Assembly (NCBI GenBank): GCA_963931925.1
Contig: OZ007569.1
Coordinates: 44,486,521 to 44,550,520 of the forward strand
Origin: Onchidella celtica
Lineage: Eukaryota > Mollusca > Gastropoda > Systellommatophora > Onchidiidae
Direction of reading: 5' to 3'
DNA: 64,000 bases
A program made the translations under genes and the position numbers. The stretch's first letter is position 1; each line of letters begins with the position of its first letter. Below the pieces are notes generated by a model. It made no database searches, was not told the origin of the DNA, and was given only the letters and a program-made list of their open reading frames with translations. This document shows, in pieces, positions 3,442 to 56,604 of this stretch.

Positions 3442-4135
3442 AGCTGAATACAGTCAGGGCTTTGACTTGGGAATTATTTGGATTCTGTGTATCTTAAGTT
3501 CTGTACCGATATTCGCTTCTTTGAAACTGGGGGGGGGGGGGGGGGCTATATAGATGAGAATATCAACATTACTAAAGTGACAGTTGTCGTTACAGAGTGG
3601 AGACTGCAAGTAGAAATGGTTCAGAATATCTCCACCATCATCGTACTACCCACATTTGCTGAAGTTCTAATTTTTGTCAATATTGTTGTGATGATTATGG
3701 GACTTCAAAAATCCAGTCACTTTCAAAAACATTCCACCTTTCGTCAGTCTGAAATACCGGTACATCAAAAGTCTCATCGCTCCAAAAATGTTTTTACAAC
3801 GATAAAAAGAGATCCAGCAAATGTAAAGGAGACAAATTCTACAATTTCAAGAAAATATGTGAGACCGATCCCAATAGTGTGCACTTTATCTTGTGCATTC
3901 ATTGCGTGTAACACACCCAACAATTATAGCCGTATACGCCACGCAGCTAGTGCCAGGATTTGACATTACTGGTAAACACAGGGACTTGTATGTGATGGTG
4001 GTGAATATTTTGTTCTTACTGACTTCTTTGAATGCTTCTGTCAATTTCTTTGTCTACATTACTTGGAATAAGACCTACAGGAAAAGCTTTGGTACCATTT
4101 TTTGCAGATATTCTACTTCCCTTGTCACCAAATGA
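3442..4135 (+). pseudogene. 7TM chemosensory-type receptor pseudogene, 5'-truncated, two frameshifts
   Basis: The segment matches the second half of the intact receptors in this window. It starts just before TM4 (WILCI...SSVPIFASLKL in the original frame) and runs through ECL2, TM5, ICL3, TM6 and TM7 to the C-terminus. TM1-TM3 are absent. A G homopolymer at about 3531-3546 replaces the codons after LKL and shifts the frame. An extra C near 3915-3919, inside the CNTP region of TM6, shifts it again. TM7 keeps the NASVNFFVY signature, and the reading ends at a stop near 4133. It cannot make a receptor. The truncation, homopolymer and second indel argue for a genuine old pseudogene, although the homopolymer length itself could be a sequencing artefact. 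Confidence 0.92.
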
Positions 4136-4214
4136 TTAAATGCTGAGAACCGATGTCTTGCAGTCCTGTCATTACATTCATCAGTGAGCAGTTGAAGATA
4201 TTTTCAAAGATCTA

Positions 4215-4760
4215 TTGATGTCCATGTTACTAAATACACCATGGCATATAAAGTACGCTTTCTGTTGCTCACACAAAAGGCCTAAGACAAGAGCCAAGAT
4301 GACACTTTTGGTGACTGTTGTAATGTTAGATTGTTACCATGTTGGATTCTTAAATTTTAACTCCAAACAATATTCGGGGTCTTTTTGTGATCCTAGGTAA
4401 GAGTACTTTCAAATTACAACGTGGTTTCTACCCGCATTCATTATTTGTCAGTTCGTTTTATGAAGAGTATCTGAACTGTCGACAGATTTCACAAATGTTC
4501 TTGACAGACAATGATGCATCTTGTTAGGCTTATTCTTTTCTTATTTTTGGCCACTTCTCAAAAGTCTTTTTAGAAATGTTCATTTTTTTTAATTTTTTTT
4601 TGGAGAATTTCTTGTAATCACCAGAAATGGATACTATAAATCTTTTCTTTGTGATTTCTTTCTAAAATTAATATAGAATACATTTTTCAGTTTACGGACA
4701 ATGTGTCTTGACAAAATATTTGAAATAGATTTAATAACGTTTGTGTCCAATTTCGTGGCA
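4215..4760 (+). repeat. Receptor 3'-flank segment, paralogous to 1190-1800
   Basis: See the partner copy at 1190-1800. This copy sits about 80 bp after the receptor pseudogene and so identifies the segment as receptor 3' flank. It contains no gene of its own. Confidence 0.6.
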
Positions 4761-6275
4761 TTTGAACAATAGGAAATTATTAATAGGCGCGTTTTGAAAC
4801 TTTGTACAAAGTCCGGTATGGTGAACGAAACTTTTAGGTGAATATGGCCAGGATTGGGGTTATAGTCAAATTGAACTCCTGTGCTCCTGTACGATATCAT
4901 GGCATGAAAAGTCTTAGAAAAGGTGGGTTGTAGATTTTAGTTTTCACTGCAACACACTCCCTTGAAAGCACTCCATGAAGGTTGTTCTGTAAAGCAGCGT
5001 GGGTGGTGCAGCACAAGCAATCAACATTAAACACGCCAGTCCATAACTCTGTGGTCTGGATTCATTACTCTAAAAGATACTAAAAATTGAGTTTACGGTT
5101 CATTCAGTGTAAACCAGGTTGGAGAAAAAAAAAACATTTTCCTTTTTCCGGGGAATTCCATTAGTTGATCGGTTGCTTAAGGGACTGGTAGTTTGTGAGA
5201 TTATGGAAAAGACTTTTAATTTGATATTTTAGAGCGATGAAACACGACATTTTAAAAAAAAGTGAAGAAAAATTACCCATGGAAAAAAAGTCAGTCGTTT
5301 CAAAAGTAGCAAGGGTCATTACAATGAATGAAAACAAAGGAATGACTTAAAATCCGAATAATTGTGAACATTTCATTGTTTGTTTACTCTGGATTTTATG
5401 TCCCTTTTTAACAGTCAGATTACAATGTAGACAAAGATTGGCTTCGTGTTTTGGCAAACAATGTGTTGGTGACTTGAACAGGCCATGAGAGTTTTTACAC
5501 TTTCTGTTAGGTACTCAAACTAGTGGGCCACTGTGTCGGTGATTGACAATCGATTGTCGATACATTTATTATTCCAGACTTGAGATTGGATGAAAGAGAA
5601 TGTTGCATCTCCAGTTGTAAAGAAAGACAGAGTGAGAAATATGCTCTCGAGGACGATGCTGGGTATCATGATTGCTTTCAGTATGTAAACAAGGCTAAAG
5701 AGCAAAATAATTAATCGTGAACTATCTTGAGTGGTAATTTGATAAATTCCGTAATCCTTTAGGCAGGGTTCACGGGGCGAGGGGGTTGTGTATGTTTGGT
5801 ATCAACATCCCTTCCTCCTAACTCCAATGGAACAATTCAATTTTAGCTTTTCTTCCAATGTACATAAAGAACATTTTGAAACCTTTAATTTTACGTACAT
5901 TCAAATAATGTCTACATCAACTTCAACGAACACTCATTAATTGTTTTCAAAATCATCAAAATCACTCCAGCGTGAGGCCCTCCTGGTCACATAAGATAAA
6001 CATTTTTAAAAAAATGAGAAGTGGCATCACTGGATAACAGCAGTTGTTATTGTTATTGCTGTTATAATTGTTGTTGCAGTTGTTATTGTTATTGCTGTTA
6101 TAATTGTTGTTGCTGTATGTCTGCCTGTTTTGCATTTTATTTATCACTTTATTTACATAAGGATTTCACAACCAAGCATATCTTCAATTCCTGTGTCAGT
6201 TTTTTCTGTAACCGTCTACCTTTGCTGTTATCTTCATAGTTGCTAAGGAGAAATATTTGAGTAAAAAATGCCAAG
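4761..6275. other. Intergenic, no supported gene
   Basis: Open frames are short and compositionally biased. The only structured item is the minisatellite at 6041-6115. Confidence 0.5.
6041..6115. repeat. Two-copy 36-37 bp tandem repeat rich in GTT/ATT
   Basis: GTTGTTATTGTTATTGCTG followed by TTATAATTGTTGTTGC occurs twice in a row. It gives Asn-rich and Cys-rich spurious translations on the two strands. Confidence 0.9.
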
Positions 6276-6279
6276 AATA

Positions 6280-7154
6280 ATTGTATAATAAAGTCATTTT
6301 ATAAGATAATACTTGCTGGTACATTAATTATACAGAATGGAAGTAGTGCGTTGAATGAAGGATTTTCTCCACCTAATTCAATAAAACTACCTATAGAATA
6401 ATGTTCCTTTATTAAATGTGTAATTGATAGCTTGACATATTTAAGAGGAAATGGGGCCTAATCGTTTCCAAACACCCACTAATCGTGCAGAGTGGATCAA
6501 ATCAAAATTGTTTTTGCAACCGCTCAAGTAATCTTCTCTTACAATGACCCGGTGTAAAAAGATGGATGAAAATCAAAATATAATAAGTATGGAATGGTCA
6601 AATGAAAACCCGATTCCCAGCTGCTATTTAAAAGAGCTATGATTTAGACTGCATGGACAAAGACAACATGTTGCTAAATAATTGGTTCAGTGAAGTACCG
6701 TGCGCTTTTTATTATAGACGTAGCACACCCTATGCCTATGATGAAAGATTAAGATCATACGTTGGTACAGAACATTAGACATAAGTACACCAATTGTAAC
6801 AGGGCTGTGTTTTTTACTGTGATCGATATGTCTGTGGACATGAATAAATGTCATATCCATCCTACCATAATCTACCGTGATCGAAATGACTGCGGACATA
6901 AATAAATGTCACATCTACCCTGCCATAGTTCACCCAATAACTAATGAAATAATCCAAATGCAAATTCTCATACATCAGCTACGCTGTATTTCTCAATTGG
7001 AGTTCCTAATTTTCTAGAAGTTTCGAGCTGCGGTTGATCTTTAAACTTCCGAAATAACACAGGAATTAATCATATTTAGGAGTTAGTAAGAAGAGGGACA
7101 ATGCGATCGAAGGAGAACAATGCGATCTGAGGGTGACAATGCGATCTGACAAAG
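6280..7154 (+). promoter_or_regulatory. Conserved receptor upstream block (promoter/5' UTR candidate), pseudogene copy
   Basis: The block shares ordered landmarks with the regions upstream of the receptors at 23243, 33608 and 41914. They are AATAAAGTCATTTT, a TTGAATGAA..TCTCCAC segment, an ACTGCATGGACAAAGACAACA-type segment and a GCACCCT..GAT..A..GATT segment. A triplicated 19-bp unit with ATGs lies at 7096-7148, directly before the start codon. A regulatory role is inferred only from conservation. Confidence 0.4.
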
Positions 7155-8193
7155 ATGGATGTCTTTACATCAGTAATTACTTCTATCTGTTTTGTAGGAA
7201 TTTTAGTGAATGTCTCCAACATTGTTGTGTTTCTCAGACAAGATTACAGAACAAACAACGTCACACTGACTTTACTTTCTTTGTCCATCTCTGATTTGTT
7301 GGTGTTAGTCTGGGCGTTTAGTTATTACTCATTTAGCATTTTGCTGTTTCTGTTTCCCTCAAGCCCTGTTCACTATGAAGCATTTCAGAGTTACGTTCTG
7401 GCTAGGATAAGTGCAATGTTTTTTCAGATATCCAGTGTAACTACAATATTATTATCATTGGAAAGATGTTTTTGTGTTATCGCTCCCCTTCGTATGCAGT
7501 TTCTTTTTTCTGTACGCCGAATAGTCCTCGTTTTAAGCATTATTTGGATGGACTATGTGTATTTTAGATTCTGTACCGATGTTTGCATCATTAAAACTGA
7601 AGGCCTATTTTGATGAAAATTTCAACGTAACGAAGACGACCGTCGGCGTTACAGAGTGGGGCTCTCGAGCAGAAACGGTTCAAAATATCACCAATGTTGT
7701 TGTGCTGCTCACAGTTGCTGAAGTTGTGATTTTTATCAACGCTGTTGTGATGATTATGGGACTTCGAAAATCCAGTCAGTTTCAAAAACAGTCCACATCT
7801 CAACAGTTTGAAAAACATGAAAATTCTCAAAGCTCGAAACAATGTCATGTTTTTACACTGAATAAAAACGATACGCCAATAGGAAAAGTGGCAAATTCTA
7901 CTCTTTCAAGAAAATATGGGAGACCAATCGCAGTTGTGTGTACCTTATCTTGTGTGTTCATTGTGTGTAACACACCAGTAATAGTAATGGTGTACGTCAT
8001 AGAACTGGTACCTGAATTTGATATTAATGGGGAATACCGTGATTGGTATATGATGATGGGAAATGTTTCATTTTTAATGAGTACTGTGAATGCCTCCGCC
8101 AATTTCTTTGTCTACATTACTTTGAATACGACATACAGGAAAACATTTTCTACTATTTTTCGCAGAATGTTTCACCTCCAGAGTCACCGATGA
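7155..8193 (+). pseudogene. 7TM chemosensory-type receptor, full length but frameshifted after TM4 start
   Basis: The first frame starts at an ATG in the conserved context TGACAAAGATGGAT. It encodes TM1 (GILVNVSNIVVF), ICL1 (RQDYRTNNVT), TM2 (SISDLLVLVW) and TM3 ending SLERC, and reaches IIW in TM4. Compared with intact paralogs there are four extra bases around 7548-7556. The rest of TM4, ECL2 (YFDENFNVTK), TM5, TM6 (CNTP) and TM7 (NASANFFVY) continue in another frame to the stop at 8191-8193. Apart from this indel the copy looks well preserved, so it is either a young pseudogene or an assembly error. The upstream ATGs at 7101, 7120 and 7139 are unique to this copy. If the indel is an error, this would be a fifth intact gene. 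Confidence 0.9.
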
Positions 8194-8214
8194 TTAAATG
8201 CTGGGAACTGTACC

Positions 8215-8330
8215 ATGTAATACCAGATCGCAGACTTGTGCATCTCTTGATCAAAAACTAACCTGTTGGCATCACATTTAGTTGCCTCTGATATTAATTT
8301 ACTATTATATCAAGATCTAATAGAAAATAC
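8215..8330 (+). repeat. Receptor 3'-flank segment, paralogous to about 53655-53775
   Basis: Both copies contain a GCAGACTTGTGCAT-like word, TGATCAAAAA or TGATGAAAAA, and ATCACATTTAGTTGCCTCTG, followed by ATTAATTTA. It begins about 20 bp past the pseudogene stop. Confidence 0.7.
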
Positions 8331-8339
8331 AATGCAAGT

Positions 8340-10870
8340 AGCTTATAATACTGGAGTGCGTGGCTCGCGCGCGGCGCACACAAACGAAAGAGGGCTGAGC
8401 GTGTCAGACACGGTGGCCGTATCGCGATGCTCAGGGGGTCGAAGAGGCTCTTTGCTATGCACTGGGCTTTACCTAACATTTCGTATGGTATGTGTTTCTT
8501 CAGTTTTGTACGCGTTTTTCTGTTCGCAATTAACCCATTGTCTACTGCACTGGGGCACCTGTCTGGAACTGTGCCACAGAAACTGGTCAGCTGTCCACTG
8601 GTCAACTTGAACTGGGAAATTATGAGATTACCTCAGAAAAACCAAGATAACTCAGTTGTTTGGCATACAAACACTACAAACGCATTATATTTGAAAAGAT
8701 CTTTGAATTCCCTAATCATTCGTGTAAGTTTTGGGATAATCTGATGGAATTTTCATGAAAGTTTAGGGAGGTGGAAAAATTGACCATTTTCAGCAAAAAA
8801 TATTGTCAAATTTTGTACAACTTTAGCTTGCAATTACTCCAAGATTTTCTTATTTTAAGCCCATAGTATATATATAAGAGAAAGTTGTATCAGTCATTTT
8901 CCTTTCATTTGCAAAAAAAAAAAAAAAAATCATCAAAATTCATAGACAGTGAGAGAAGTTATGAAAATTTGAAACTCCATACCTTTATTTTTGTATTTGC
9001 TGACACTGAGTGGTTGTTTGCCATGTAACATACATACGCTGATATCTCTGTCATTTTGAGTATATTTGACGTAAGAATAAAAAAAAATGTCTTTGAATAC
9101 TCTGTCTAAGTGTTTGAATTAAATGACATTAAAAATTTATCACATATATGTCATACAGAAAAGATGTTGCATACATACAACGAAAACACAATTCGGCCAG
9201 GTTAAAGTGAAGATGGAAAGTGAAAAAAAAAAATAAATAAGTAATTTTAATCTAGTAGTACTGCTGTACTTTTATTTTTTTATTCAAGGTGTGTATAAGA
9301 ACATTCATTTCCCTTAAATTAAATTAAATATCGTGAATGATCAGCGTATTATATGAAAACTGTGACGAAAGTAGTTTTATTTTGTGCCCCATGAATTTAA
9401 AATATAATCCAATGAAATAATGCACAACATACACACACTCAGAAATGTCCTATTTATTTGAATTACTCCAATAATTCACATGTACTAAAAAACACAAGTA
9501 GTGTCTCTAGTAACTAGAAAATGAGGGTCCTTCGAGTAGTCTGAAATGCCCTGCAGAATGTCTGCAAGCCGAAAACAGTACCTGAAAAATATCAAACACA
9601 ATATATTATAATTTATAAACATAATACTATAGATCAAAAAGCCAGGAAATATAACAGAAGTGCATGAAGTAAAGTTAAATACAAACAATATAGTTTTACA
9701 TGTATTGTCAGGATTCTTTAGGCTTAGAGATTTACATAAAAGAATTGGAGCTCATACAATTTCCAAATAGATGTCAGGCTGGACTGAATATGGTGTCTAA
9801 GTTAGTTTTTTTTCCTTCTTTTCTTTACTAATAGATGAAGATCTTAAATAGATCTATTATTAGTCCAAAAATGGTCTTATGAGAATAAGATTTGCAACTT
9901 AACTTGATAATGTGACTGCATGTTGTGTAAAGACTACAAGTTGGGATGGATCAATGACAAATCTTTTGCTCCTCCATCCTACGGCCACCCTCTCTTCCTC
10001 GGTTGAGACCGAAGTTGATATTACATCTTGTTGTGTGATTTCACGGCCGTTGGCGTCGATTTAGCGAGCTCTAACCAAGGCACTGTTATTCCAATTGATG
10101 GTTATTGCTATCCATCACTACATCACTGCCGTCGCAGCCTGCATCGTAGGTTGAATTTGAAGAATTCATGTGAAGATGCAAGTAGCATGTTCATGCCAGT
10201 AACAAAGCAAACACTGCCAAGAGTGCGAACGAAACTAAAAGTCCCGCCGGATGTTGACGGAAGGTAGCTACAGCGCACTTTATCTACATTCTAGTCCAAA
10301 GTGGATAGAATACTAAGAGGTTTAATGTGATGTTACCTACAATTGCCGTGCGACAAGGTGACAGGGCGACCCAGATTCGAATTGTTGATGGCGAAACTAT
10401 AGACTTTAACAGTAGTTTGTGGAAATTTATTGCAAGAAATGCTGAACTACTAACCCACAAACCCGGAACGTTAAAAGCTTAGGATGATAAAGATTTTCTA
10501 AATATATATTTAAACAATATAAAGAGAACAAAGAAAAAGTAAATAAATGTTCTGTGTGCGGTTATCAAAAGTGTATGCAAAAAATATATATGTTATATAT
10601 ATATATGTTATTTATATAGAGAGATTTCGACCTCATGTCGTTTGCAGAGGAAACTCTACACACACACAGACACAAACAATACTAAATCTAAATAAATGCA
10701 TTGTACAGTTGGAAAGATGAACCACACCGTGTGCAATACAGTCGTACCGGTACTACACTAGACATATCTTTGGACCCCCAGAGTGCGGCTGCTGAGGTTC
10801 CGTGCCTGGCATGCGTTACGTCATTGCTCCGCTCTCCAGTATAGATAGTATAAGCTCCTTGATACTATGT
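8340..10870. other. Intergenic, no supported gene
   Basis: This is a mixed AT-rich region. It has a short GC-rich patch (about 8355-8445, several CGCG words), a poly-A run near 8913 and an (AT)n stretch around 10585-10620. The open frame at 10028-10267 has no recognisable domain and no paralog seen elsewhere in the window. Confidence 0.45.
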
Positions 10871-10875
10871 AATTG

Positions 10876-12120
10876 CCTTCCTTCTTTTTTATTTGATATT
10901 CTTGATTTTAATCTTTTGATTTATTGATATTAAGTCAATTTACTTTTTGTTTATATGAAATCTGTGCAGTTCACTGATTGATTAACTGGTGTGGTTGATT
11001 AAAAAAATATTGACAGTCTGCTTAGGACTATCGAATTCTAGTTTTTCACATCCGTGGGAGAATATTGTTCTTTTACTGTTATCCCACAGGAAGTACAAAG
11101 TGCATTCAGCCTCATAAGGAGAAAAAAAAATACAAACAATTACAAAAGAAAGATGCAATGGTTAGAACATTAATTTCAAACCAGCAGGAAGGCAAGAGGA
11201 GACGGCTCGCATTCAATGCATGTCGTCTTAGTTCTTATGTTTTGTAGGACAATACTATGCTACAACAGTGATTACACAAAATGTATTTCATGTACTAGTT
11301 TATAGTTCAGAGAAACAACTCCTAAATCATGAGATTAGGACAGCCAGGTCATTATGTAGTATAGCTTGTTACTTAACATGCCAAAAACCTTCCTGTAGCA
11401 GTATACCATCTTCAGTACCAACCCCAAAGCATTTGGGGAGCATATTTCCTGATACCTTTACCTTTCCGTCTCTCTAACCAGGGGGGAAAATCTACAAAAG
11501 AAGTGTAAAAAAAAAAAAAAAGTGTGAAGGCGGAAATATAAAACCAGTCCACTGAAAAAACATAATAACAGGTTTGAATTACTGAATGTGCTCATATCAG
11601 GCAATGTCTATAAAACAGAATTTGGCGTTATCTGCTACAGTGGTGCATCCTCACTAGACAGAGCTATTGACTTAGATAATGAAACTATGCAGCCTCACAG
11701 AAAAATCACTCAATTTCGCATAGTATGAGGGAATGGAAATTGTATAAGGAAGCAAGACAGTAAAGATGTGTATATTTCTGTTTGCGCACAGAAAGACTGG
11801 TGAATCTATATACATGTACCCTTTATATTCAGCCCAGATAGTGTTTAATTTATTTGTTGCCTAACCAAGGGTGTATCTGTTACAGAAAATTTACAGAAAA
11901 GTAAATTCTCTATAACTTGACTACTACTGTGTTGTTCCTAAAATACTGTCACTTATCACAGAACATTATCTCTATTTGTATCATCATTTTGAAAGAGTTT
12001 ACTGCACTGAACAATTGGATGAAGGGAATTTAGGAGAAATACATTTATCCACAAGCACAAAAATCTTGAATGTGATCTCACAGAATAATTTTCACACAAA
12101 GAACACAAAATGAGTGAATG
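10876..12120. repeat. About 1.24-kb repeat, tandem copy A
   Basis: The region is directly repeated at 12125-13385, and a third more diverged copy lies at about 53775-54740. Ordered landmarks include TTTTATTTGATATTNTTGAT, CACATCCGTGGGAGAATATT, TCATGAGATTAGGACNGCCA, GCATCCTCACTAGACAGAGC and GTTGCCTAACCAAGGGTGTA. Open frames are not conserved between copies, so this is a non-coding repeat family. Confidence 0.85.
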
Positions 12121-12124
12121 GATG

Positions 12125-13385
12125 TGTTTTTCTTCTTTTTTATTTGATATTATTGATTTTAATTCTTTGATTTATTGATACAAACTGAATTTACATTTGG
12201 TCCATATAAATTCTGTTCACTGCTTGATTAACTGATGTGCTTGTTTAAAAATTATAGACAGTCTGCATAGGACTAGTTGAGTTCTCGTTTTTCACATCCG
12301 TGGGAGAATATTGCTTTTCTTTACTGTTATCGTACAGAAAGTACAAAATACGTTCAGCCTCAGCAGGAGAAACAAAAATTACATCCAATGTGAAGAGAAA
12401 TATGGTATGGTTAGAGCATGAAACTTAAATCAGTAGGAAGGCAAGAGGATACGGCTCATATTCCCTGCATGTCAACTAAGTTCTTACGTTTTGTAATAAC
12501 ATGGTAACTTTCCCACAACAGTGAGTCCACAAAATGTATTTCATGTACTAGTTTGTACCTCAGAAAACCACTCCTAATCATGAGATTAGGACGGCCAGGT
12601 CATGATATAGTAAAGTTTGTTACTTAACATGTCAAAACCTTCCTGTGACATTATACCATCTTCAGTACCAAGCCCACAGCATTTTGGGAACAGATTTCCT
12701 GACACCTTTACCTTTCCGTCTCATTAACCAGGGAAAAAATTCGAAAGGAGTGTAAAAAAAAAGTTGTAAAGGCGGATCTATAAAACCAGTCCACTGAAAA
12801 AAACATAATAAAGATTTGAATTACTGACTGTGCTCATATCAGGCAATGTCCATATAAGTAGAATTTCGCATTATCTGCAACAGCTGTGCATCCGCACCAG
12901 ACAGAGATATTGACTTAGATAAAGAAACTATGCAGCCTCATGGGAAAGATCACTCAGTGTAGCATAGCAAAGCCATGTACATTTCTGTTTGCGCACATAA
13001 CGGCTGGTGTATCTATAAACCGTTAACATTCGGCATAGACAGCGTTTAATTTTTTTGTTACCTAACCAAGGGTAATTCTGTTACATATATTTTACAGAAA
13101 ATTAAACTCTCTATAACGTGACTGCTACTGTGTTGTTCCTAAAATACGGTCACTTATCATGCAACATCATCTCTATTTCTATCACCATTTTAAAAGAATT
13201 TTACTGCACTGGACGAATGGAAATTTAGGGGAAATTCACTTTATCCACAAGAACCAAAATCTTGAATGTGATCTCACAGAATGATCTTCACAAAGAGAAC
13301 ACAAAATGATTGAACGGGTGTGTTTTTCAAAAGGGGAGAAAATATGCGAATGGGATCCTGATAAGACACAGGTTGTGTGTGTACT
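12125..13385. repeat. About 1.26-kb repeat, tandem copy B
   Basis: This is the direct neighbour of copy A, collinear over nearly the full length with scattered substitutions and short indels. Divergence is visibly high enough that the duplication is not recent. Confidence 0.85.
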
Positions 13386-14140
13386 AAGATGACACTATAC
13401 TCACCAGGACTATGGTCATCAGAATAATATTCAAATTTACTCATCGAATTCAATACTTCTTTCGGTTTCTAGATTGCCCATTAATATTGTGGTTTAAGAT
13501 TAGCAGTATGCAATGCCATTGCTTATTTCTGATGGTAATAATTATAAGCACATTGTCTTGTCATCTTGACTTCCCCCTCATTATGTGGAGAGAATAGATC
13601 TAAAAAGGTCTGCATTAATCCTGACAATAATTATGTTACGCCTCGCCCTTCAACATTAAGGGACGATAAACCCACATATAGATATTTTTCATACTGCGCA
13701 ATGAAGGGGCCAGGAAGAAACTTTTTTTTTTTTTTGATGAGTGAATTTTGGATGTTGTCTTATTGCTGCTGGTTACGAAGAGGCCACATAACAGTGCAAG
13801 GTTCGGGGTCCCAAAAATGTAGGTCAGCCTCTGCGTAGAGAGTTAAGGAAAGAACAGCACATTTCTTGTCCATTCCCGCTGAGCATTGTATTCATTTTTG
13901 GTACATCATGGGTCAACGGCAAGTATCGGAATATTTTTATATTTTTTCTGGGTCGTAGAAAACACGTGGGGCTGCCAATTTTTTTTTTTTAACAATCATC
14001 TTCACTCTAAAAGCAAATTGTATTGAAAATTTCAAGTGAATCGGTACAAATATGAAATCCTTAGGTGTAACACAGTTCATATTTGTCTGTTTATAACAAT
14101 AGATTTATTTCTTTATTTATTCTTATTTTCGTCGTTGTTT
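13386..14140. other. Intergenic with one dispersed repeat
   Basis: 13716-13840 is a dispersed repeat also seen at about 35500-35625. Shared words are GAGTGAATTTTG, ATGTTG and GTCCCAAAAATGTA. The rest has no supported feature. Confidence 0.5.
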
Positions 14141-14149
14141 CTGGAGATG

Positions 14150-15140
14150 GAACGAAACCAGGTCCAACATAATTAATTTTATTGTTTCTATGATCAAGCC
14201 AAAGCTTGAATGCGCTCACAAATTTTTATTCAATTTAAGATTATGATAAACTAAACACTAGGTCTTTAAACTCGGATTTCAGCACAACCTTATTTTGACT
14301 ACTTTTTATTACACTTCAGATATACACTTTTATATACAGTCAAGAAGTTTGTGTTACTGATAGTAAAGTCAACAGTCAAGACAAAAGAATATTAAATGTC
14401 CATTATTAATTCGTATCCTCTAATTTGCAGAAACTTTGTTGAAATCTTCTATAAATTTACTTCCTCCCCGATATAATTAAAATATGCGCTGTTCGTTAAT
14501 TATACTGGAATAATATAATAATTCATTTTATTTAATGAAAGCTAGATTTTAAGCGTCCTGTGTCTGGACTAAGAATGATAATGATAAGAAAAAGATTTAA
14601 TAGTTCTTCTTTCCTTATTGGCGGCACATTAAGTTTTTCATAGGCTACAATGTCCCATGAAATAGTGAACAATTCGGATACTTTAGGTTACAGAAACGTT
14701 CAACTGTTTTGTTTTTTTTCATTGATGTAAAGAAAGATATACGCTTTTCGTTGCCCTAGAATTATGATACATTTTTGTGTTTAATGAAACGTAAATTTTA
14801 AGTATCTACAATCAGGAGAATGAACGCTACAACAAGAACAATAATTTTTACTTTCTTACTGGCGACACATTAGATATGTCATAGTTATGTCCCCTAACCA
14901 ACCACCACATTTTTAGTTATTGAGCTCCACCATTGTGTCTCCGTACAGTTTTCAGTTCGCGCTGAACATAAAAGTAAATGGTGTCAACATAACTCACAAT
15001 GAACTGGTTTTACATGGATAGTATCTCCCATGATCACTCCACCCCCACCTCAGCCCCCCCCCCCCCGGGCCCACAAACACACCCTGGTGGACAGGGATTT
15101 TGCTGAAAATGTTGTCAGGTTTTTTCATATTCGTTAAGGC
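14150..15140. repeat. Duplicated receptor-block flank
   Basis: The region is collinear with 2030-2600 plus 3120-3300 (separated there by an insertion) and with parts of 37340-38090. It contains a C homopolymer at about 15054-15066. No gene is supported. Confidence 0.5.
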
Positions 15141-15747
15141 CTGTTTACACTGGTGGGTTTAGACGTTTTAGCACAGGAAGTTAGGGGAATGCGTGTTGCC
15201 TTTACACCAATCTGAAGCTGGAATGAAATCCAACTCTTTCCTATTTGACTTCCGATTTCCCCTGGGAACACTGAAATGGAACCAGAAAAACTGAAATAGA
15301 ACCATTGCTATTTTTCTCATTCCAATGCCAGAGAGGTTTTGTGTCACATGATAACATTTCCGGTGTAAAATGGCCTGGGGCCGAATTGCCGATGAAACTT
15401 TCAATAAAAAATGTTTGAAAGCGAGAGCTGTCTATGGGATAGCCTACTAATTCGCCCACATACCGTAACAAGCAGGCCGGAACAAAAACCCTTTAAATTT
15501 AGGCGAGTGATGAAAGCCTTGAAATGTCAGATTAGGTTGAATTTACACCTTAAAGAGCTGAACCGAACGACTCATTCACTCTACTTGTGGGCTGCCAGCA
15601 ATGGCCACACTAGAGGCCACCTCAGTCACATGAACACAAAACAAAAGATAAGCGTCTATTCTCATTCCGAAAACGAACAATTTAAAAAAAATAATGTTTC
15701 GAGATTGAAATCAGAAAGCAAAAAATCTGAAAACCAGAGTTCTCCCC

Positions 15748-16794
15748 CTACTGCCTCAATACCTTTTCTCTATACCTCCAGCGTAAACATGCCTGTATGG
15801 ATTTTGATGCACTGGACACACTCTTGTCTAATATGTCACTTGCGGTGTCAAGACCGTCCCTGGGGTAATAATAAAATCTCCCTGTTCCACCGCTATTGGT
15901 AATATCACATTTCTTTTCATCCAACCAAATCCTGTCGGGACATTCCATGGTAACTGACGGGACGTTCAGACAATACTTTTTAAGAAAGAAGATGCCACTA
16001 AATAAATAACCAACCATTTATTTCAAAATGGACTGATCAGTCCTCCAGCAAAATGGTACAGAAATAAATGTGCTTTAAATAATAAAAATTAAGATACGTC
16101 CATTCAATTGCCTCCACTTTACTTGGTAACTGATGGGATAGAAAAAATACCATGTTTTTTACATAGCAAATTGAAACTGCAAAATTTGTGAAACCAAACC
16201 AACAAATTAGTGCTAGTGAACAATGTTTTCTGCACTCAAAAAATGCATTTATGAGCATACAGAAAAAGCATAAATTAAATAATCAAGTTTTACTTTTAAG
16301 CGCAGTGGGGCAATTAGTTTGAGTAACTGATAGGACATAATCTTGGTAACTGACGGAAGTTTGCTCTTTTCCAGGATGGTCACTAGGCCACATGACCAAA
16401 GAAGATAATGCTAACCAAAAATATTAATTTAATTACGATCCTTTACAACACAACCACAACTTTTTTCGCAGGCATGGTTTGAAAATGGCTCTCAGTTAAC
16501 ATATTACATGGAATGTCCCCGTCAGCACTTAAAGTTTCCGGGTTAAAGCGCAGAACAACATGCAATTCATTGTCGAACGTGCTCGATATGCATGCACAAG
16601 GCCCCTGTTGTCTGGTTCACAGTCTGTCTACATATCAGTGTCTTTGTGTGTCCTTGGAGGATGAAACTGCTAACGGTATACATTTCGGCTACGCCGCAGG
16701 TGAAATTCTTGCTTTTCCCTCCTTTTATTCTTCACCGGTCCGAAGTCAGTTGAATAACATGCTTTGTTTTCTCCCAAGCAAATGCACAGCTTAA
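15748..16794 (-). pseudogene. Decayed coding-like segment of unknown family, copy 1 of 3
   Basis: On the minus strand a frame of about 90 codons (16017-15748) contains DRIWLDEKKCDI and DKSVSSASKS. Further upstream near 16500-16570 lies an ELHVVLRFNPET-like stretch, and near 16740-16800 a NKACYSTDFG-like stretch. The same ordered short peptides recur on the minus strand at about 29690-30250 and 38110-38640, in each case within a receptor block. Conservation at the peptide level among copies suggests a former gene with several exons. Copies 2 and 3 contain stops or frameshifts. Between the pieces of copy 1 lie four short repeats with the word GTAACTGA, near 15949, 16125, 16324 and 16346. I do not recognise the family and assign no function. 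Confidence 0.35.
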
Positions 16795-17305
16795 TTTGCT
16801 CTTCGTCTGAATACGTTTTAGTTATCACACGTCTTTACTGCCTGAGTCATTTATGATTCTCAAAAGTGCTATAACTGTATTATTTCCTCCATATCCGCTT
16901 TCTCGCCGTGTATCTATCAGAAAAGACTATAGTGCTTTTACAAATTATATGTCTCGCCTGGAAGTAGCATTTCATTACAATGAAGCTACTTAGAGACAAG
17001 GCTTTGAGCACCCACGTTGAAACTGCTAGCGACTGGAGTGGACATGTAAATCCTACTAAAGTGAACAACTGACGGGGGCGTGGACTGTGGATGTTTGTAT
17101 TCCTAAGGCCTGTGTCCACTATTACGATATCAGAATTCTGATTTCCCCTCAAAACTTTGCAGAAAGTCCGTTGCGTTTACACAATTACAAAATCAGAACG
17201 AAACTGCGTGCTTTCTGCTTTATGTTCTGATTTCCCCTCCGAATTCGAAAATAGAACTGTTTCTATTTTCTGTTCTGATTTCGGAATCCTTGACCCAGCT
17301 TTAAA

Positions 17306-20300
17306 ATGGCGCTGAGGCTAACAGTGACGGAGAACTTCATCTATTTGTTCGAATATGAATACCAGTCTTATGGGACACAAAATCCTCTAATTATCAGAAT
17401 AAAGATGCCAGGAATGCGGCCCTGGAACGTATTGCAAGAGCTCTTGGGCTAGAAGAAAACGGTAAGTTCATACATCAATCATGAATTAGGCAGCACCTAT
17501 CTGTGTCAGTTTTCGGACTGTCTTAGTTTTCGGGAGTGACTTTGGTTGTGTTAGAATTGTCATTACAGTATTGTATTTGTGGGTATGACTGATTGCCTAA
17601 GTATGAATTATGCATTGTTCTTCAGTGAAGAGTGTAATTAAGTGCTTTTTTAAATGGTTTTGACCCCGTATCATGACTAGTAGTAGTAGTAGTACTAGTA
17701 GAGACGAGCACTAGATCTAGATCTAGTTACTGGATAGATCTACTATCATCTAGCAGGAATACACGAGTGTTGGACAATCATTCTCGTAACTACCTACTTC
17801 GTGTGACTTGTGCTGTGCTACGATCCCACTGCTTTGCTGATACAGTATAGCTCCATCCAGTAAACAAAAGCATGAACAACTATTGGGGCTCTTTCAGCAG
17901 ATCACCAGATGGACAGATTGACCATCCACCGCCCCAGGAGAAGGAGTTCATGTATTTATAAACGTCTATCCCATCCAAGGCTGGGTTATTCCATCAAGTA
18001 ATGCTTTTCTTAAAAGTGTAGGAATGAAGATGCAACTGCTTTAAGTTTTTAAACTTTTCAATAAATAACTCGGCACATAAACCTCATTATATTCTTGTGT
18101 ATTATCGTTACAGGAGATGCTGTCAAGTCAATAAAAGAGCGAATAAAGCAACTTCGCAGTACATTTACAAAAGAGCTGAGGGCTGTTCGTGACAGCAAAA
18201 GAAGTGGAGCCGGAACTGCCGATGTTCATGTGCCGAAGTGGAGGTGGTTCAGCAAACTGCATTTTCTTGAGCCACATGTGTCAATCAGGAGCGGTCTAAA
18301 TAATTTAAATGTATTGTAAGTAGCATTGATCCAGAATGTTTTTTGCTCCACCTGAATGGTGCGTGCTTTCGATGTCGTCAGCGCTAATGTGATGTTCAGC
18401 AAATCCATTGTTTATTTGTGATACCAAATCTTTATTAACGTGGTTCTAGCTAGAACAATACCAATTTGTGTGATGAATTTACTAAGATTAAACTTAAACG
18501 ACACTTCTCTGTCGTATGTATTTCATTTTTCACTGAGAGATTTTAGTTCATATTTAACTGAAACAAAGGAGTGAAATAAATTCTAATTTGTTTATTGGAG
18601 CTATCATATAGTTGAACATGAAACCCCCAAATGTGTGGCTTTTGAAAAAAAAAATCAATGAGGTATCTTTAGTTTTCTCTTTTAATTTTTTTCTTTGGGC
18701 CTTTGTTTTCAAAACGTGTAATGAAAGTTGCTAATTCTGACAGACTATTTTTATTTTGGTTATTGTGGTTAAGTTAGTACGTCATGTATGTTATCAAATT
18801 TAACGAGTTTGGGAACTGGATATAAACTATGTTATCTAGATCTAGTCCCATGGTCTGGATGTGTGTCATTATTGTCATGTATTGGTATTTAATGTATTGT
18901 AATTTAACGCTGTGATTTTGGTAAACAGTAATCTGGACCCTTGATATAAAATAATTTTTGGAGATTCACAAACAACAACCAACTTTGTACAAATTAGTAT
19001 AGTTTTTAATACATTATACAGAACTTAATACAGGACATAGAGTGGCAAAAGATTAAAATAGAAAAATAGAAATAACTCACTGTCTTGGCACAATTTGTTA
19101 AGAATATGAAGTTCACCATTTTATTACTTGAAAAAAAACAATTTAAAGCAAAAAAAAAAACAAACACTTGACTTTTTGGCATGCTTACATTTGCACACAC
19201 AAGGCAATTTAGCAGTCCCGAAAAGATATACTAGACATGTAAATGTGGGCAGAAGAAAATTTATTTATTCTTTGAGGGAAGGTTAAACTGTCATTGCACA
19301 CTGCCAACACTGTTGATATAATTGGAAAAAATCTCTCTCACACCTCTTGCATCAGCCCCACTCCTGTTTCTACGTTGACTTTGTATGCATCTTAAATTAT
19401 TATCATTAAGCTTATGGTCTATTCCTGTTGAATAAGCCATATCCATTTCCTTCATCAGATAATTATGAAGGGCAAGGGCTGCCAATGTTACATTTGTTGC
19501 CTTTTCAGGGCCCAGTAAAATGGTCGTTTGAAAGACTGCAAACCGCTGCACCATGATGCCAAATGCATTTTCTGCGCAGCAGTGCGCTCTTGATAGCCTG
19601 TAGTCAAAGATGCGTCTCCTTTCTCTTTCCTGTTGTGGTACATCATACCTCACGGGAAAAGGTTTCAGCAAATAGGGTTTAAGTGGGAATGCATCATCAC
19701 CCACAATTACAAACGGTGACGGACAGTCAGTCCCTGGGAGGGGCTTGGCAGGAGGAACATGTAGGGTCCCAGTTTCCAGTCGTTTGAAGAGTGGTGAGTC
19801 CCTGAAGACGCCAGCATCCCCCGATCTGCCATTGGCCCCCACATCCACATAAATAAATTTATAACTGCTGTCAACCAGTGCCAACAGAATAATACTATGA
19901 AAATGTTTGTAATTATAGAAGACAGAACCTTGTCCTGTTGGTGCCTTCAGAGCAATATGTTTCCCTTCAATGGCCCCTAAACAGTTGGGAAAGTTCCACC
20001 TCCTCTCAAAGCCTTCAGCAATTCTCTGCCAGTCTTCTTCTGTCCGCGGAGTCTGTGGATAAAGAATATACACTGTATAGTGTAATAAATTGTATTTTTA
20101 TTGTTGTGGGTGTTTTTTTTTTTTTTTTTCAAAGCTAACCATATTAGATCTACAATGTATTATTTCATTCAAGCCAAACATTAAGAATGGATGACTTTCT
20201 ATTTCCAGCCCCCTGCACAAAATCCCACCACGTCAAGCTATCCAAGACACACAATCGACACTACAAGACAGTCTGTCTTTGAATTTGGGAGAGAGTGAAT

Positions 20301-20649
20301 CCTCACCTGTGGAGTCATCCCCACTCCTTTTTGAAGGGGACATAGTGTCTACGATAACCATCACCAATGAGGAGGGGCGTATTTTAAATATGGAGACGAA
20401 CTGGTGAGGGAGCAGCTACTCCAGGCAAGACAAGAAAAAGGCAGCGGGAGCCTTCTCCCGACTGAAATTTTAAAAGATATTTACCAGAAAAGGCAGCAGA
20501 GGGCACAGAATAAGTCCTCCAGACATTATCATTTTGCAATGGACATGTGTGTCCAACTTGATGCCATGGACCAACGAAAGGCCATGGCATTAAGAAGAGA
20601 AATTACAAAGCTTCTGCTAGACTACACAGCTGATGATGCTGAGCAATAA
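17306..20649 (+). pseudogene. Harbinger-encoded MADF/BESS-like DNA-binding protein gene, decayed
   Basis: Three exons can be read. Exon 1 is 17306-17461, starting at ATG after TTTAAA and ending at the donor G|GTAAGT. Exon 2 is 18114-18315, acceptor TTACAG and donor GTAAGT. Exon 3 is about 20209-20649, acceptor TTTCCAG, stop TAA. Exon 1 end plus exon 2 give an acidic and basic helical region ending in VPKWRWFSKLHFLEPH, typical of a MADF (Myb/SANT-like) domain. The last 40 residues (HFAMDMCVQLDAMDQRKAMA onward) resemble a BESS protein-interaction motif. Known PIF-like elements encode such a partner of the transposase. In exon 1 the first part (FIYLFEYEYQ) and the later part (YQNKDARNAALERIARALGL) are in different frames. 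Exon 3 needs at least one more frame change. The gene is therefore non-functional. Confidence 0.75.
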
Positions 20650-21783
20650 AATTAAAAATTGAACATTGACAAGATTGCTATTTGAGTCATTTTGTTTCCT
20701 GGCTACATTTGTTTGTTGTTGTTTCTTTTTTTGCAATTTTCTCTGCCAGTCTCCTTTCCTTTCTTTTTCTTACCTTTCTCAATTTTGATGTTGATGGTCT
20801 GTGAGTGTGAGTATCATGTGACAAGACACACTGTTATTGTTAGTAGTATTATTTGGCATACATGTTATCTCTTAGGAATATTATGGTAAATGGTAGCTTA
20901 CAATAAAGTGAAACTGATGTCATTTTCCCTCTACCATTGCATTTTATACAATATATAAAAAAAAATAACATTCAATAAACTAAAAACATTATTATAGCAA
21001 GGCTTATTGACAAACATAATTATTTCAAGTAGAAGTGCTAAAAAGTATTACTTGATACTACTGAGAGTGTATTTTCTGATAATTTTATTTCTAAAAAGTA
21101 AAAGATATGCCCTTCACATCAGAACCACATACCGGAAGATACTTCTCTTTTAGGACATCAAAGATTGCAATACATATTTCATGCACTATCCTGGAAATGG
21201 TACATGGAGGAATCCTGTATAAATATTGCAGATTGCAAAACTTGCTGCCTGCAGAAAAACAACAACAGAAACATGCATGAAACTGAAGCAATAATCAGAT
21301 ATTTTGCAACAACAATTTATGATTATGACTATACTCTTAATGTCATATCATTATTTACACGAACAAATTAACAAACAGGGACTAAATCAAACTGCATTCG
21401 GCAGCCACATACATTGAGTGTTTACCTGAGGCCAAAAAACTCAGAGTCAGTGCCAATCGCTCTCCAGGGGGTATTGCTTCCTCATATGCGTATTCTGTCA
21501 CTTGATGAGAGGTGTTACAAGTTCCGAAAGCACTTCAAAATGGCACAGATCCATCCTCAGAAACGAGGTGTATGTGGGGGGGGGGGGGGGGGGGGGGTCT
21601 TCAGCAACCAATTCCTTTAAAAGATTGGTGTAAGCACCAGAGTTTTCACGATGCTGAATCCATGGACGAACCTATACACTGCGTCTTTTTTTTTTCTTCT
21701 TTTGCCGTGATTCGATATGTTTAAGGGCTAGCAGTCTCAAATAAATCGTCATCATCACTGTCAGAACTGTCAGCGGACGCCAT
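19291..21783 (-). pseudogene. HARBI1-type PIF/Harbinger transposase, three exons, disabled
   Basis: Exon 3 (20052-19291) encodes about 250 residues of the DDE nuclease domain. Motifs are GAIEGKHI, GDAGVFRDS, VGDDAFPLKPYLLKPFP and AENAFGIMVQRF. The position that is normally Asp in GxIDGxH is Glu here, while the second Asp and the final Glu remain. Exon 2 (21248-21133) encodes the helix-turn-helix-like LQYLYRIPPCTISRIVHEIC; its boundaries are CTGCAG| and CCG|GTATGT. Exon 1 (21783-21426) starts with an acidic MASADSSDSDDDD and ends at a TCAG|GTAAAC donor. Exon 1 carries at least two in-frame stops (a TAG where related proteins have Trp and a TGA after TPLIK), two apparent frameshifts and a C homopolymer at 21577-21597. 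The enzyme cannot be made intact. Confidence 0.9.
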
Positions 21784-21961
21784 TTTGGTTAGTAGGAAAT
21801 GCCACAGCTGTTAGTGTTATTCTGATCAGAATTCTGACATCATAATAGTGGACACACACCTCCGAAATCAGAACAGAAATCAGAAAGTTCAGATTCTGCA
21901 TCTGACTTTCTGATTTCTTCTCCCGCAGAATTCTGATATCGTAATAGTGGACACAGGCCTT

Positions 21962-22240
21962 AAATAAAGTAAATCCTGGTTTTGAATCAGTACCTGGGTG
22001 TATTTCAGCTGTTGACTTTTCATCATTGACAATCCACGATTTTCTCACTGTAAGCTGCATGTTAGGTCACATTCTTCCTGCTGCCAAGAAAACAATTAAA
22101 CAACGAGGTATCTATCAATTACATTAAAATCTGTGACCTTTATGCCTGCTTATTCTACATTCTGTTTAGTAGTTTCTTCACCTACAGATCTGTGCTCGGG
22201 GCATGTCTTTAATTCCTAGATCGACATTTCAACGCGTATC
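21962..22240. repeat. Duplicated flank, paralogous to about 39330-39420 and 40800-40920
   Basis: After the transposon end the sequence resumes with ATTTCAGCTGTTGACTTTTC, which matches ATTTCAGTTGTTGACTTTTC in the 39.3-kb copy. Further on, an ACAGATCT..TCGA(C/T)ATTTCAA segment matches DNA near 40850 and 32685. This ties the 16.5-22.3 kb region to the 38.3-40.9 kb region as diverged duplicates. Confidence 0.6.
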
Positions 22241-22404
22241 TAATTTTGTTGGTCTTTACCCCATGAATGAATATTTCGTATTTCCGCGAGACTAAAAGGT
22301 CTAACTTTTCTAGTGTCTGCTGCTTACACTAAATAGAACTATCGGAATAGACACTAAAAGGAACTATCGGAATAGACCTGGCCAACATGGCCTCTGTAGA
22401 TATT

Positions 22405-23050: not shown

Positions 23051-23242
23051 GCAGTAAAAGAGAAGCAAACTACATATTAATGAGTTTTGTTGTTTTCCTC
23101 CAATGACATGTAATGGTTCCTGCATGATTGTATTTTCTAGAAGTTTGGATGTTTTCTGCATTCAAATTTCAGTTGTTCGAAATAGCGGGGAAAATATTAT
23201 ACTAGGACACAGAAAGAAGGAAAAGAAAGGGATTTGACAAAG
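22480..23242 (+). promoter_or_regulatory. Conserved receptor upstream block (promoter/5' UTR candidate)
   Basis: Begins with GCTATTAATAAAGGCATTTT, matching GCTATTAATAAAGTCATTTT upstream of the 41.9-kb receptor, with further partial matches up to the start codon. The start itself sits in TTTGACAAAGATGGAT, as in its paralogs. The regulatory role is inferred from conservation only. Confidence 0.4.
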
Positions 23243-25070: not shown

Positions 25071-25073
25071 GTT

Positions 25074-27650: not shown

Positions 27651-27660
27651 CCATGTATGT

Positions 27661-28124: not shown

Positions 28125-28314
28125 CCACGCATTTCATTGACTGAGTTGCGCAACAAGGCTCACAAACAAGATGAGCTCAAATTCCTATCCATCTGAATTA
28201 TTTTACTCCTCATTTGTACAAAAGAAAGAAATAGCATTATAAGAAGTAAACACACGATAGTTTTCGGGGGTTTTTTTGTTTGCTTTTAACCACTATTTAT
28301 TACACTAACCACTT

Positions 28315-51931: not shown

Positions 51932-51937
51932 TTTGCG

Positions 51938-52251: not shown

Positions 52252-52259
52252 TGTGGTAA

Positions 52260-53650: not shown

Positions 53651-53654
53651 TGTT

Positions 53655-54740
53655 TTCATTATGCTATAGTAATGCCAGATTGCAGACTGGTGCATTTCTT
53701 GATGAAAAAACACACTTTTGTGCATCACATTTAGTTGCCTCTGAAATTAATTTAATAGATTTAGATCTAGTAGAAATGTTTCTTTTTTACTTGATATTAC
53801 TGATTTTAATCATTGATTTACAGATGCAAAGTCAATTTACTTTTTGTCCATATAAAATCTGTGCATCTGTTGGAAAAATTGAATACCAGCCATAAGATCA
53901 GACAGCCAGGTCATGATGTAATGGAGCTTGTTACTTAACATGTCAAGACTTTGCTAGGACAGTGCACCATCACCACTATCAATCTCAAATCATTTTGACA
54001 CCTTTACCTTTCTACCTCACTAACCAATTTTAAAAAAAAAAAAAAACTAAAAAAGGCTGAAAAGGCAGATCTGTAAAGAATGTCCAGTGGGAAAACAATA
54101 ACAAAACTTAGAGTTACTGACTGTGCTCATGTCAGACAGTGACAATACAAGTCGAGTTTTGTATTATAATGCCACAGTGGTGCATCCTCACTAGACAGAG
54201 CTAAATTGGCATAGATGAATGAAACTATGCAGCCTCACACAAAGATCACTCAGAATGCGTCAGCTGTGCTTGGCATGACTAAGTGGGTATTGTACAAGCA
54301 ACTAATAATAGTAAAACCATGTAGATTTCTGTGTACGCACAAATAGACTGGTGTATGTATAAACCCTTAGTATTCAGCCCAGATAATGTTTAATTTATTT
54401 GTTGCCTCACCAAGGGCGTGTCTGCTACAGAAAATTAATGCTCTGTAATTTGATTACGATTGTGTTGTTTCTAAAATATTGTCACTTGCCATACAAACAG
54501 CATCTCTGGTTCTTTCATCATTTTACAAGATTTTACTACAATGAACAATTGGATGACAGGAACTTTAGGAGGAACACACTTCATCCACAAGTATCAAAAT
54601 CTTTAATATTATAACCTCAAAAATGATCTTCAGATAGAGAACGCAAAATGAGTGATTGGATGTGTGTTTTTCACTGAGGAAAAAGGGGGAGAAAATAAGC
54701 AATTAAAGCTGCATCCAGATAAGTGCCGCGTTGTGATTGT
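53655..54740. repeat. Third copy of the 1.2-kb repeat, preceded by receptor 3'-flank DNA
   Basis: 53655-53775 matches 8215-8330. From about 53775 the sequence is collinear with copies A and B at 10876-13385: ATTTTAATCATTGATTTACA, CAGCCAGGTCATGATGTAAT, GCATCCTCACTAGACAGAGC, CACCAAGGGCGTGTCTGCTA. It has internal deletions. The receptor-flank DNA and this repeat occur in the same order after the pseudogene at 7155. Confidence 0.8.
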
Positions 54741-55590
54741 ACCAGGATGATATTCTACTCTTTAGGCAGCGTTTTAACAACAATCAAATCGTGTGTTTTG
54801 AGAGGAAAACAGCATTTCCCAATGCAGATTGTTGCCTTTTGTTCTTTTCAAATGAATACTTGGATTCTCAGCTTTCTGTATATGCTGTTAATTGCAATAA
54901 TTAAGGACAGTGAAGGGAACGAAATTACGTCTGGTAAAGCTCATGAATTGCCTGTCATTATTGCGTCCAAGCAGCGAATTGATACGAAAATAAACAGCAG
55001 TTAAAGCCATCCAGATTTTTTAAAATATGTACCTGACCACTGGAAAGCCAATTAATTCAGTGGCAATTTTCATAGGAAGAGCGAAACCCGATTTTCAGTT
55101 TCTAAGTATATGAATCAGGGTTTACAAATGAATAGAAAATGATCATGTACTGGCAAATATACTGAATTACAGCTCTTCTGTGTAATCAAACAGTTGTTAC
55201 CATGACTGTATTGCCCTGTGTCCTATTATTATTATAGAGGACAGTCGCCTAAAGATGTGTTGCTGCAAATAATTAAATGTGGGTGCATATATATAAACAT
55301 GTCTGTCGTGGTCAATCTAGGGACAGAAATTTCCTTTTGGTGCCCATGTCCGTCGAATTTTTCATTTCACAAATAGTTTACAGAACAGGTGAAGAAAAAA
55401 AAGTCAAATTCTACTTTCAGGAATTTTATTACACTGCTTTTCTACATCGCAAAATCTTTAAAAAAAAATTCCTGAAATTTTAATTTTCATTTACAAAATA
55501 TATGATTACATCAAATTTTACTCCATTGTGATGATTTGAGAAGTATTCGATTATTAAATAGAGATAAGAAAAGAAAAGGCTTTAGCACAG
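54741..55590 (+). other. Upstream region of the 55.6-kb receptor, not clearly homologous to the others
   Basis: The conserved upstream block seen before four other receptors is not obvious here. The start codon context is GCACAGATGGAT, different from the AACAAAG/ACAAAG consensus. No other gene is supported. Confidence 0.4.
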
Positions 55591-56604
55591 ATGGATGTCT
55601 ACACGTTCATTAATATTCCTGTCTCTTTTGTGGGAATATTCCTGAATGTTTCCAACATTGTTGTGTTTCTCCGACAAGATTACAGAACAAACAATGTCAC
55701 ACTGACTTTACTGTCTTTGTCTATCTCTGATTTGATGGTGTTAGTCTGGGCTATTGTATATTATTTATTTAGCATCTTCCACGTGCTATTACCGGCAAGC
55801 ACCATAGATTATAAGGCATTTCAGTTTTATATCTTGGCGCTGATGGCCACACTCTTTTATTCTGTCTCCATTCTGACAACGGTGTTTGTATCTCTGGAAA
55901 GATGTCTGTGTGTCATCATGCCTCTTCGTGTACATTTTTTCTTCTCTGTGCGCCGAACTGCCAACGTTTTGATAGTTCTTTGGATTGTGTGCATATTAGA
56001 TTTATCACCGGCATTGGCTACCTTAAAACTGGCAGCATATTTTGACGAGAATTTCAATGTTACAAAAGTGACTGTCGACCAACATCAGTGGTCCGGGCAA
56101 GAAGGTGAGATTCATAGAACTATCTACTCCATTGTGGCTGTAGTTACTGGAGCCATAATATTTGCCAACACAGTTGTGATGATTATAGGACTTCGGAAAT
56201 CCATACACTTTCAAAAATTTACAAGAATGAATGTTCAACCGTCCGAAAGAATCGAAGACCCTCCGAACTTGACGAATGTTGGGAAATCAGATAAAAACAA
56301 GAGGAAAAAAGTAAAAGCGGTGAATTCGAACATGTCGAGAAAATATGTCAGGCCAATTATAGTTGTATGTTCAATATCTTGTGTCTACACTGTGTGTAAT
56401 ACCCCAACAGTGGTCATGACAGTGGTGCCTCGAATAGTACCTGAATTTTACTATGCAGGCAGTCACCAAGATCTATACGAAATGGTGTTGAATATTTCTT
56501 TTTTACTGCACATTGTGAATTCCTCCGCCAATTTCTTTATCTACTTTATCTTCACTAGAAGTTACAGGGACACCTTCTTTAACGTTTTTTGTAAAATTTT
56601 CTGA
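55591..56604 (+). CDS. Rhodopsin-like (class A) chemosensory-type GPCR, intact, most divergent paralog
   Basis: A single exon of 337 codons. TM1 (FLNVSNIVVF), ICL1 (RQDYRTNNVT) and TM2 (SISDLMVLVW) are almost the same as in the other copies. TM3 differs widely (ILALMATLFYSVSILTTVF before SLERC). ECL2 keeps YFDENFNVTKVTV but then has DQHQWSGQEGE. TM5 contains VVTGAIIFANTVVM, ICL3 is longer and very basic (NKRKKVK), ECL3 differs and TM7 reads NSSANFFIY. TM6 keeps CNTP. No TM3-ECL2 cysteine pair is present. The loss of similarity in ligand-facing parts with a fixed TM1-TM2 suggests a different ligand range. It lacks the conserved upstream block of its paralogs, so it may also be expressed differently. 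Confidence 0.95.
   Translation: MDVYTFINIPVSFVGIFLNVSNIVVFLRQDYRTNNVTLTLLSLSISDLMVLVWAIVYYLFSIFHVLLPASTIDYKAFQFYILALMATLFYSVSILTTVFVSLERCLCVIMPLRVHFFFSVRRTANVLIVLWIVCILDLSPALATLKLAAYFDENFNVTKVTVDQHQWSGQEGEIHRTIYSIVAVVTGAIIFANTVVMIIGLRKSIHFQKFTRMNVQPSERIEDPPNLTNVGKSDKNKRKKVKAVNSNMSRKYVRPIIVVCSISCVYTVCNTPTVVMTVVPRIVPEFYYAGSHQDLYEMVLNISFLLHIVNSSANFFIYFIFTRSYRDTFFNVFCKIF

Follow-up and report, generated by a model that had tools for sequence, protein, structure and literature searches.

A tandem array of chemosensory-type receptor genes in the gastropod Onchidella celtica, with an inverted and circularly permuted copy of a three-gene segment

We analysed a stretch of 64,000 nucleotides (the window) from the gastropod Onchidella celtica, positions 44,486,521 to 44,550,520 of contig OZ007569.1 in assembly GCA_963931925.1 (C3:44486521-44550520 in our numbering; the genome searched comprises 1.14 Gb in 43 contigs), which lies within a tandem array of genes for chemosensory-type receptors. 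A match of 48.2 bits in this genome to PF02323, the egg-laying hormone family typical of gastropods, had no equivalent in 14 control genomes and is in keeping with a gastropod host. Positions given below are window coordinates, continued where necessary past either end. Four intact open reading frames (ORFs) of 333-340 aa start on the plus strand at 23243, 33608, 41914 and 55591, each running uninterrupted from ATG to stop and predicted to form a single exon: A23 (23243..24265, 340 aa), B33 (33608..34609, 333 aa), C41 (41914..42924, 336 aa) and D55 (55591..56604, 337 aa). D55 belongs to a more divergent lineage, at 53-55% identity to the other three. Three broken relatives (3467-4108, 7155-8193 and 30422-31905) share the plus strand. 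P3 (3467..4108) retains only residues 127-334 and carries 11-nt and 1-nt insertions, P7 (7155..8193) is of full length with a single 4-nt insertion near residue 132, and P30 (30422..31905) retains only residues 68-194 and is split by a 1096-bp element (30548-31643). A weak similarity on the plus strand at 57723..57830 (E=0.006), with the TM6-like motif SLSCVFVICN (TM, transmembrane helix), may be a relic of an eighth, very old copy. Upstream flanks are common to the copies; that of A23 occupies 22123..23242 (plus strand), and its 22405-23060 part found matches in the genome search only within the array.

A preliminary description of the window had proposed a tandem birth-and-death array of one chemosensory-type G-protein-coupled receptor subfamily, and this core holds, more strongly now that the whole genome has been searched. 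The four intact and three broken copies are confirmed by their ORFs and by tblastn with the four proteins as queries, which gave no match at E<1e-4 in 20 shuffled windows. The shared flanks it reported are real upstream of the copies, at about 58-74% identity where alignable, and the split of P30 by a transposable element is exact, with 39 other copies of the element scored in the genome. Its mixture of young and old pseudogenes is likewise seen, in the wider array, where pseudogenes of plainly different decay are present. Its claim of a single strand stands for the window (seven of seven copies) and fails for the wider array, where 6 of the 32 copies are on the minus strand.

A genome search with C41, in which the best 120 of 1680 candidates were scored so that counts are lower bounds, returned at least 149 match rows. 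Identity is at least 43% in at least 37 rows, which fall in C3:44.413-44.682 Mb, further left on C3 (44.00, 43.13 and 42.95 Mb) and at three C11 loci; the others, at least 112 rows with 24-36% identity, are scattered on many contigs. From 255.5 kb read around the window (containing one 2.5-kb N run) plus three further copies, we count 32 copies or fragments on C3:44.413-44.682 Mb (268 kb), 15 of them intact and 17 broken. The four intact among seven in the window thus resemble the array-wide proportion. Beyond the window the array continues for about 73 kb to the left and 131 kb to the right, and start-to-start spacing across the left part and the window is 3.2-16.1 kb. The leftmost receptor fragment has a 1185-residue ankyrin-repeat ORF (L009:978-4532) about 4 kb to its left.

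After D55 there is inserted an inverted, circularly permuted copy of the segment that holds P7, A23 and P30. The donor (6118..31896, plus strand) is the source of a block that starts inside the window, at 63292, and runs past it to 79141. The left end of the block (63292..64000, minus strand) is a distal A23-type upstream flank, matching 22405-23060 in inverted orientation. Past the window, 64267-71784 is the inverted counterpart of 15315-6118, and 72497-79141 that of 31896-23026. The block carries three receptor copies, m564, m559 and m556, which in the DNA tree pair as sisters with A23, P30 and P7, respectively, support being at least 99% for every pair. Along the minus strand come A23', P30', P7' and the distal A23 flank in turn, a rotation of the donor order P7, A23, P30, and 12 of the 14 pieces of the alignment chain conform to this permuted order. 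Both block ends fall at 23049 under +2/-3/-5 alignment scoring. Non-coding identity between block and donor is 82.6-91.8% in eight of nine segments, compatible with one event; the ninth (72.7%) was excluded from this range because its alignment crosses a 2.1-kb insertion in the block. In the copy m559 the site that the element occupies in P30 is uninterrupted.

The flanks at 1.2-1.8 kb and 63.3-64.0 kb had been taken in the preliminary description for remnants of two further copies that lost their coding part, and neither reading is upheld. At 63.3-64.0 kb the flank is inverted, and its coding part is a broken copy 14 kb distant, at 77907-78931, the opposite end of the permuted block; as judged by alignment, 63292-64000 is the other half of the upstream region of m564 (A23'). 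As a separate observation, P30 (at 31890-31905) and m559 (at 72495) both break off near residue 192, each against a different sequence, and each lies about 1.7 kb before the next gene. A common cause of the two cuts was sought and not found, the sequences past them being different.

We hold with moderate confidence that the permuted block arose by way of a DNA circle. A segment that starts about 1.7 kb upstream of P7 and ends at about codon 192 of P30 would have been copied and joined end to end, the circle would have opened once in the A23 upstream flank, at about 23,049, and the opened segment would have been placed in reverse between D55 and the D55-like copy that follows. In this way A23' would have been separated from the distal portion of its upstream flank, which would have stayed at 63.3-64.0 kb as the apparent orphan. 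The block ends would coincide because any single opening of a circle gives such coincidence. Human duplications with the same permuted signature have been described, with the absence of gap or overlap as a criterion for a circle (Takahashi and Innan, PMC7188851). In our case two permuted arms, with ends meeting at one donor point, are found under +2/-3 scoring.

Several points weigh against this account. The coincidence at 23049 depends on scoring, becoming an overlap of 55 bp at +1/-1/-2 and of 167 bp at +5/-4/-8. Donor and block align as two colinear runs with several donor stretches missing, partly transposable elements: 8335-12128, 15316-22122, 26141-27102 and most of 27900-29129 have no counterpart in the block. 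Two of the 14 chain pieces match paralogous places, and the chain includes sequence of a dispersed repeat family (10867-13402). Some 700 bp of the P7' upstream flank has no counterpart next to P7 in the window and is instead similar to the flank of c485, a copy left of the window. A permuted copy could also form in a repeat-rich array without any circle. The segment P7-A23-P30 of this chemosensory-type array might have been duplicated in tandem, one period copied or inverted out of phase, and a donor unit later lost. The region is entirely a tandem array, where tandem duplication is expected, and Takahashi and Innan warn that tandem duplication can pass falsely for duplication through a circle (PMC7188851). 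However, the moved piece would have to equal exactly one repeat period, with ends within about 60 bp of each other in the A23 flank of a 26-kb donor, and the 255.5 kb read shows no remaining tandem unit. We regard this route as possible but doubtful.

At the other end of the window, the downstream flank at 1224..1787 (plus strand) most likely belongs, as its 3' flank, to c485, a frameshifted copy that lies just outside the window at -1240..-247 and is broken by a 14-nt deletion; the flank would then have its gene. Its matches are the 3' flanks of three copies, P3, c476 and c453, where the stretch begins about 140 bp past the stop, as against about 1.47 kb past the end of c485, with about 1.3 kb of extra sequence containing simple repeats (an AG microsatellite and 53-bp tandem repeats) in between. 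Flank positions 268-564 are a dispersed repeat, present in two other array flanks and in about 20 places elsewhere in the genome. The longer gap would fit a separate copy whose coding part was truly lost. This we think unlikely: c485 is the next upstream copy on the same strand, no other receptor remnant was found in between, and one insertion, with the microsatellite and tandem repeats inside the extra 1.3 kb, is simpler than the loss of a whole gene.

The four intact window proteins all match Pfam 7tm_1 (E 1.9e-13 to 5.1e-12; 46.2-50.9 bits, cut-off 30.5) over the whole seven-transmembrane region, as class A receptors do, and all four likewise match Srx and Srw. Among solved structures (PDB) their best matches are generic class A receptors, e.g. 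histamine H2, with a best E of 3.1e-05. All 20 intact copies have ERC where TM3 ends and, in TM7, N-x-x-x-N-F-[FL]-x-Y with no proline at 7.50; in 17 of them a glycosylation sequon stands at +51 from the ERC cysteine. Twenty distant loci of the genome show the same pattern, with the sequon in 18 and proline at 7.50 in none. None of 24 aligned rows, the four window proteins included, has a cysteine at 3.25 or in extracellular loop 2 (ECL2), one row having no letters at 3.25. The array copies lack the canonical DRY, NPxxY and C3.25-ECL2 disulfide, features that many but not all class A receptors have, and their absence marks a divergent branch. In a tree whose bootstrap is incompletely settled and in which long branches are flagged, 29 family rows separate from four DRY/NPxxY receptors of the same genome by a 100/100 split. 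Best matches to a non-chemosensory receptor family, which the preliminary description had named as speaking against it, did not occur; the nearest sampled relatives share the non-canonical motifs and fall on the same side of the split. None of the 7tm_1 genome matches listed falls in the array, an NCBIfam search of the receptors gave nothing useful, and the predicted structures of the four window proteins are of low confidence (mean pLDDT, predicted local distance difference test, 40.4). Another tandem array (G000:C13:31386681-31591689) holds at least 20 of the listed 7tm_1 matches within 205 kb; the one member fetched keeps DRY and NPxxY, which makes it a different family.

Candidate chemosensory receptors AcCRa, AcCRb and AcCRc have been described from Aplysia californica by Cummins et al. 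2009 (PMC2700072), with [WF]ITAF[VI]TFERCLCIA as the signature of subfamilies a and b. Two of the distant Onchidella loci, L054 and L055, read WITAFITFERCLCI[A/T], that is, the a/b signature, and they lie with the window receptors in the 100/100 split. Membership of the array in a gastropod chemosensory-type receptor family is supported by these sequence features. Each receptor would sit in a sensory-cell membrane, bind an external chemical and signal through a G protein. On the other side, the a/b signature is absent from the window proteins, all four of which read VSLERCLCVI, three of the 20 intact copies have no sequon at exactly +51, and the comparison with Aplysia and other gastropod receptors was made through their printed descriptions. 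The TM3-ECL2 cysteines and the TM7 proline are retained by most receptors for peptides and amines, and gene families for environmental sensing typically turn over fast and accumulate many pseudogenes; both points count against an expanded family of internal receptors. Such a family (neuropeptide, gamete or hormone receptors in place of external chemosensors) would accord with AcCRa transcripts in ovotestis and tags of some AcCR genes in central ganglia (PMC2700072) and with the generic class A receptors such as histamine H2 at the top of the structure matches, but is quite unlikely given that the best of those matches reaches merely 3.1e-05 and that this subfamily is without the cysteines and the proline kept in the four sampled DRY/NPxxY-type receptors. 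A tandem array of chemosensory-type receptors, including an inverted permuted P7-A23-P30 block formed via a circle, is as a whole a likely explanation of the locus.

In a DNA tree of 36 copies, neighbouring copies tend to be kin. Frameshifting indels occur in 11 of 19 aligned rows and no two are identical, so that each is private to its copy; one more copy is broken by a single in-frame stop. The copies m556 and m564 are both disrupted around residues 50-65; the idea that gene conversion had given them a common frameshift was rejected, as their indels differ. Among intact pairs the ratio of nonsynonymous to synonymous substitution rates (dN/dS) has a median of 0.30 (range 0.15-1.01; 143 of 190 pairs used), which shows that the surviving copies are under constraint. 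The corresponding ratio of proportions of differing sites (pN/pS) is 0.48 in six pairs with a broken member versus 0.41 in nine intact pairs, meaning that most losses are recent. Intracellular loop 3 changes fastest in intact pairs (0.72) and the outer loops do not, so diversifying selection on the ligand site is not indicated. A shared upstream control motif was sought over 24 copies with an unconvincing result (best 12-base block 0.77, mean 0.65). New copies would arise through local duplication and block copying, and each would be kept by purifying selection until a chance frameshift or transposable-element insertion breaks it.

The element inside P30 measures exactly 1096 bp and has short terminal inverted repeats, with a GTCAT repeat at the insertion site. 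Of the 39 other copies scored (95-98% identity; 1703 candidates at first look), 38 match over 1-1096 and one over 1-975, and the element is high-copy and apparently recent. A probable DNA transposon at 17104-21961 has 37-bp exact terminal inverted repeats, with a second copy at 80310-85145 (95% identity). A short long-terminal-repeat element at 60623-62369 has 227-bp ends that are 99.6% identical and TTACC at both sides; its single 226-aa minus-strand ORF has no Pfam match, and CCHC-like cysteines suggest that it may encode gag. Between C41 and D55 lies a reverse transcriptase ORF (50569-51906, minus strand; Pfam RVT_1). A dispersed repeat family with at least 63 genome matches over many contigs (best 40 of 155 candidates scored) is represented by a head-to-tail pair after P7 (10867-13402) and by one copy before D55 (53669-54760). 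The latter, similar to the stretch after P7, was considered as a third orphan flank and rejected as belonging to this repeat.

The array offers an unusually complete view of chemoreceptor birth and death in a gastropod, with donor and copy alignable over kilobases, and it cautions that an orphan flank need not signal a lost gene. If the circle origin is true, circle reinsertion is documented, with exact junctions, as a route of expansion of chemoreceptor arrays. Whether gastropod chemoreceptor clusters in general grow by multi-gene circles reinserting in the same array, besides unequal crossing-over, we judge an even question; if they do, reinsertion reverses gene order and severs genes from their upstream regions, and a receptor may land beside the control region of another copy. 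In the largely open literature on circles or segmental copying together with gene families or chemoreceptors, we found no description of a chemoreceptor array that contains a circularly permuted duplication.

Duplications attributed to extrachromosomal circular DNA in human, cattle and yeast resemble the block in their permuted order and in arms meeting at one point, and the donor size is similar, about 20-26 kb (PMC7188851). The block of the window differs in consisting of three tandem receptor copies, inverted and placed about 30 kb from the donor in the same array, and in being older, with non-coding identity of 83-92% versus about 97% in two human cases (PMC7188851).

For the receptors themselves the closest known system is that of Aplysia (PMC2700072). 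AcCR genes are of the rhodopsin class and encode 319-433 aa, a range that the window ORFs fit, and subfamilies b and c are intronless. The likeness extends to ERC, to pseudogenes, to clustering in one orientation about 9-13 kb apart and, for AcCRa, to an NSSVN-type TM7 without proline. By the printed residue numbers, AcCRa, b and c have a glycosylation Asn 51 residues past the Cys taken to be that of ERC, and the Cys offsets and the Asn at +51 of the window copies fit these numbers. The window copies differ in having VSLERCLCVI in place of the a/b signature and in being without the extra conserved cysteines of AcCRa and b. For AcCRc only two conserved cysteines are listed, which places it closer to the window copies, by printed positions alone. 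Aplysia also has a non-LTR element between two AcCRb genes, as the window has its RVT_1 ORF between C41 and D55 (PMC2700072). In Biomphalaria glabrata, 241 GPCR-like BgCR genes in 14 subfamilies are genomically clustered, with 14 genes on a single scaffold and one seen in tentacle by RT-PCR (reverse transcription PCR) and in situ hybridization (Adema et al. 2017, PMC5440852); they are likened to the window receptors here by description, not by sequence. The array is thus an ordinary one for gastropods, of the known AcCR/BgCR kind, and the permuted block is its new part.

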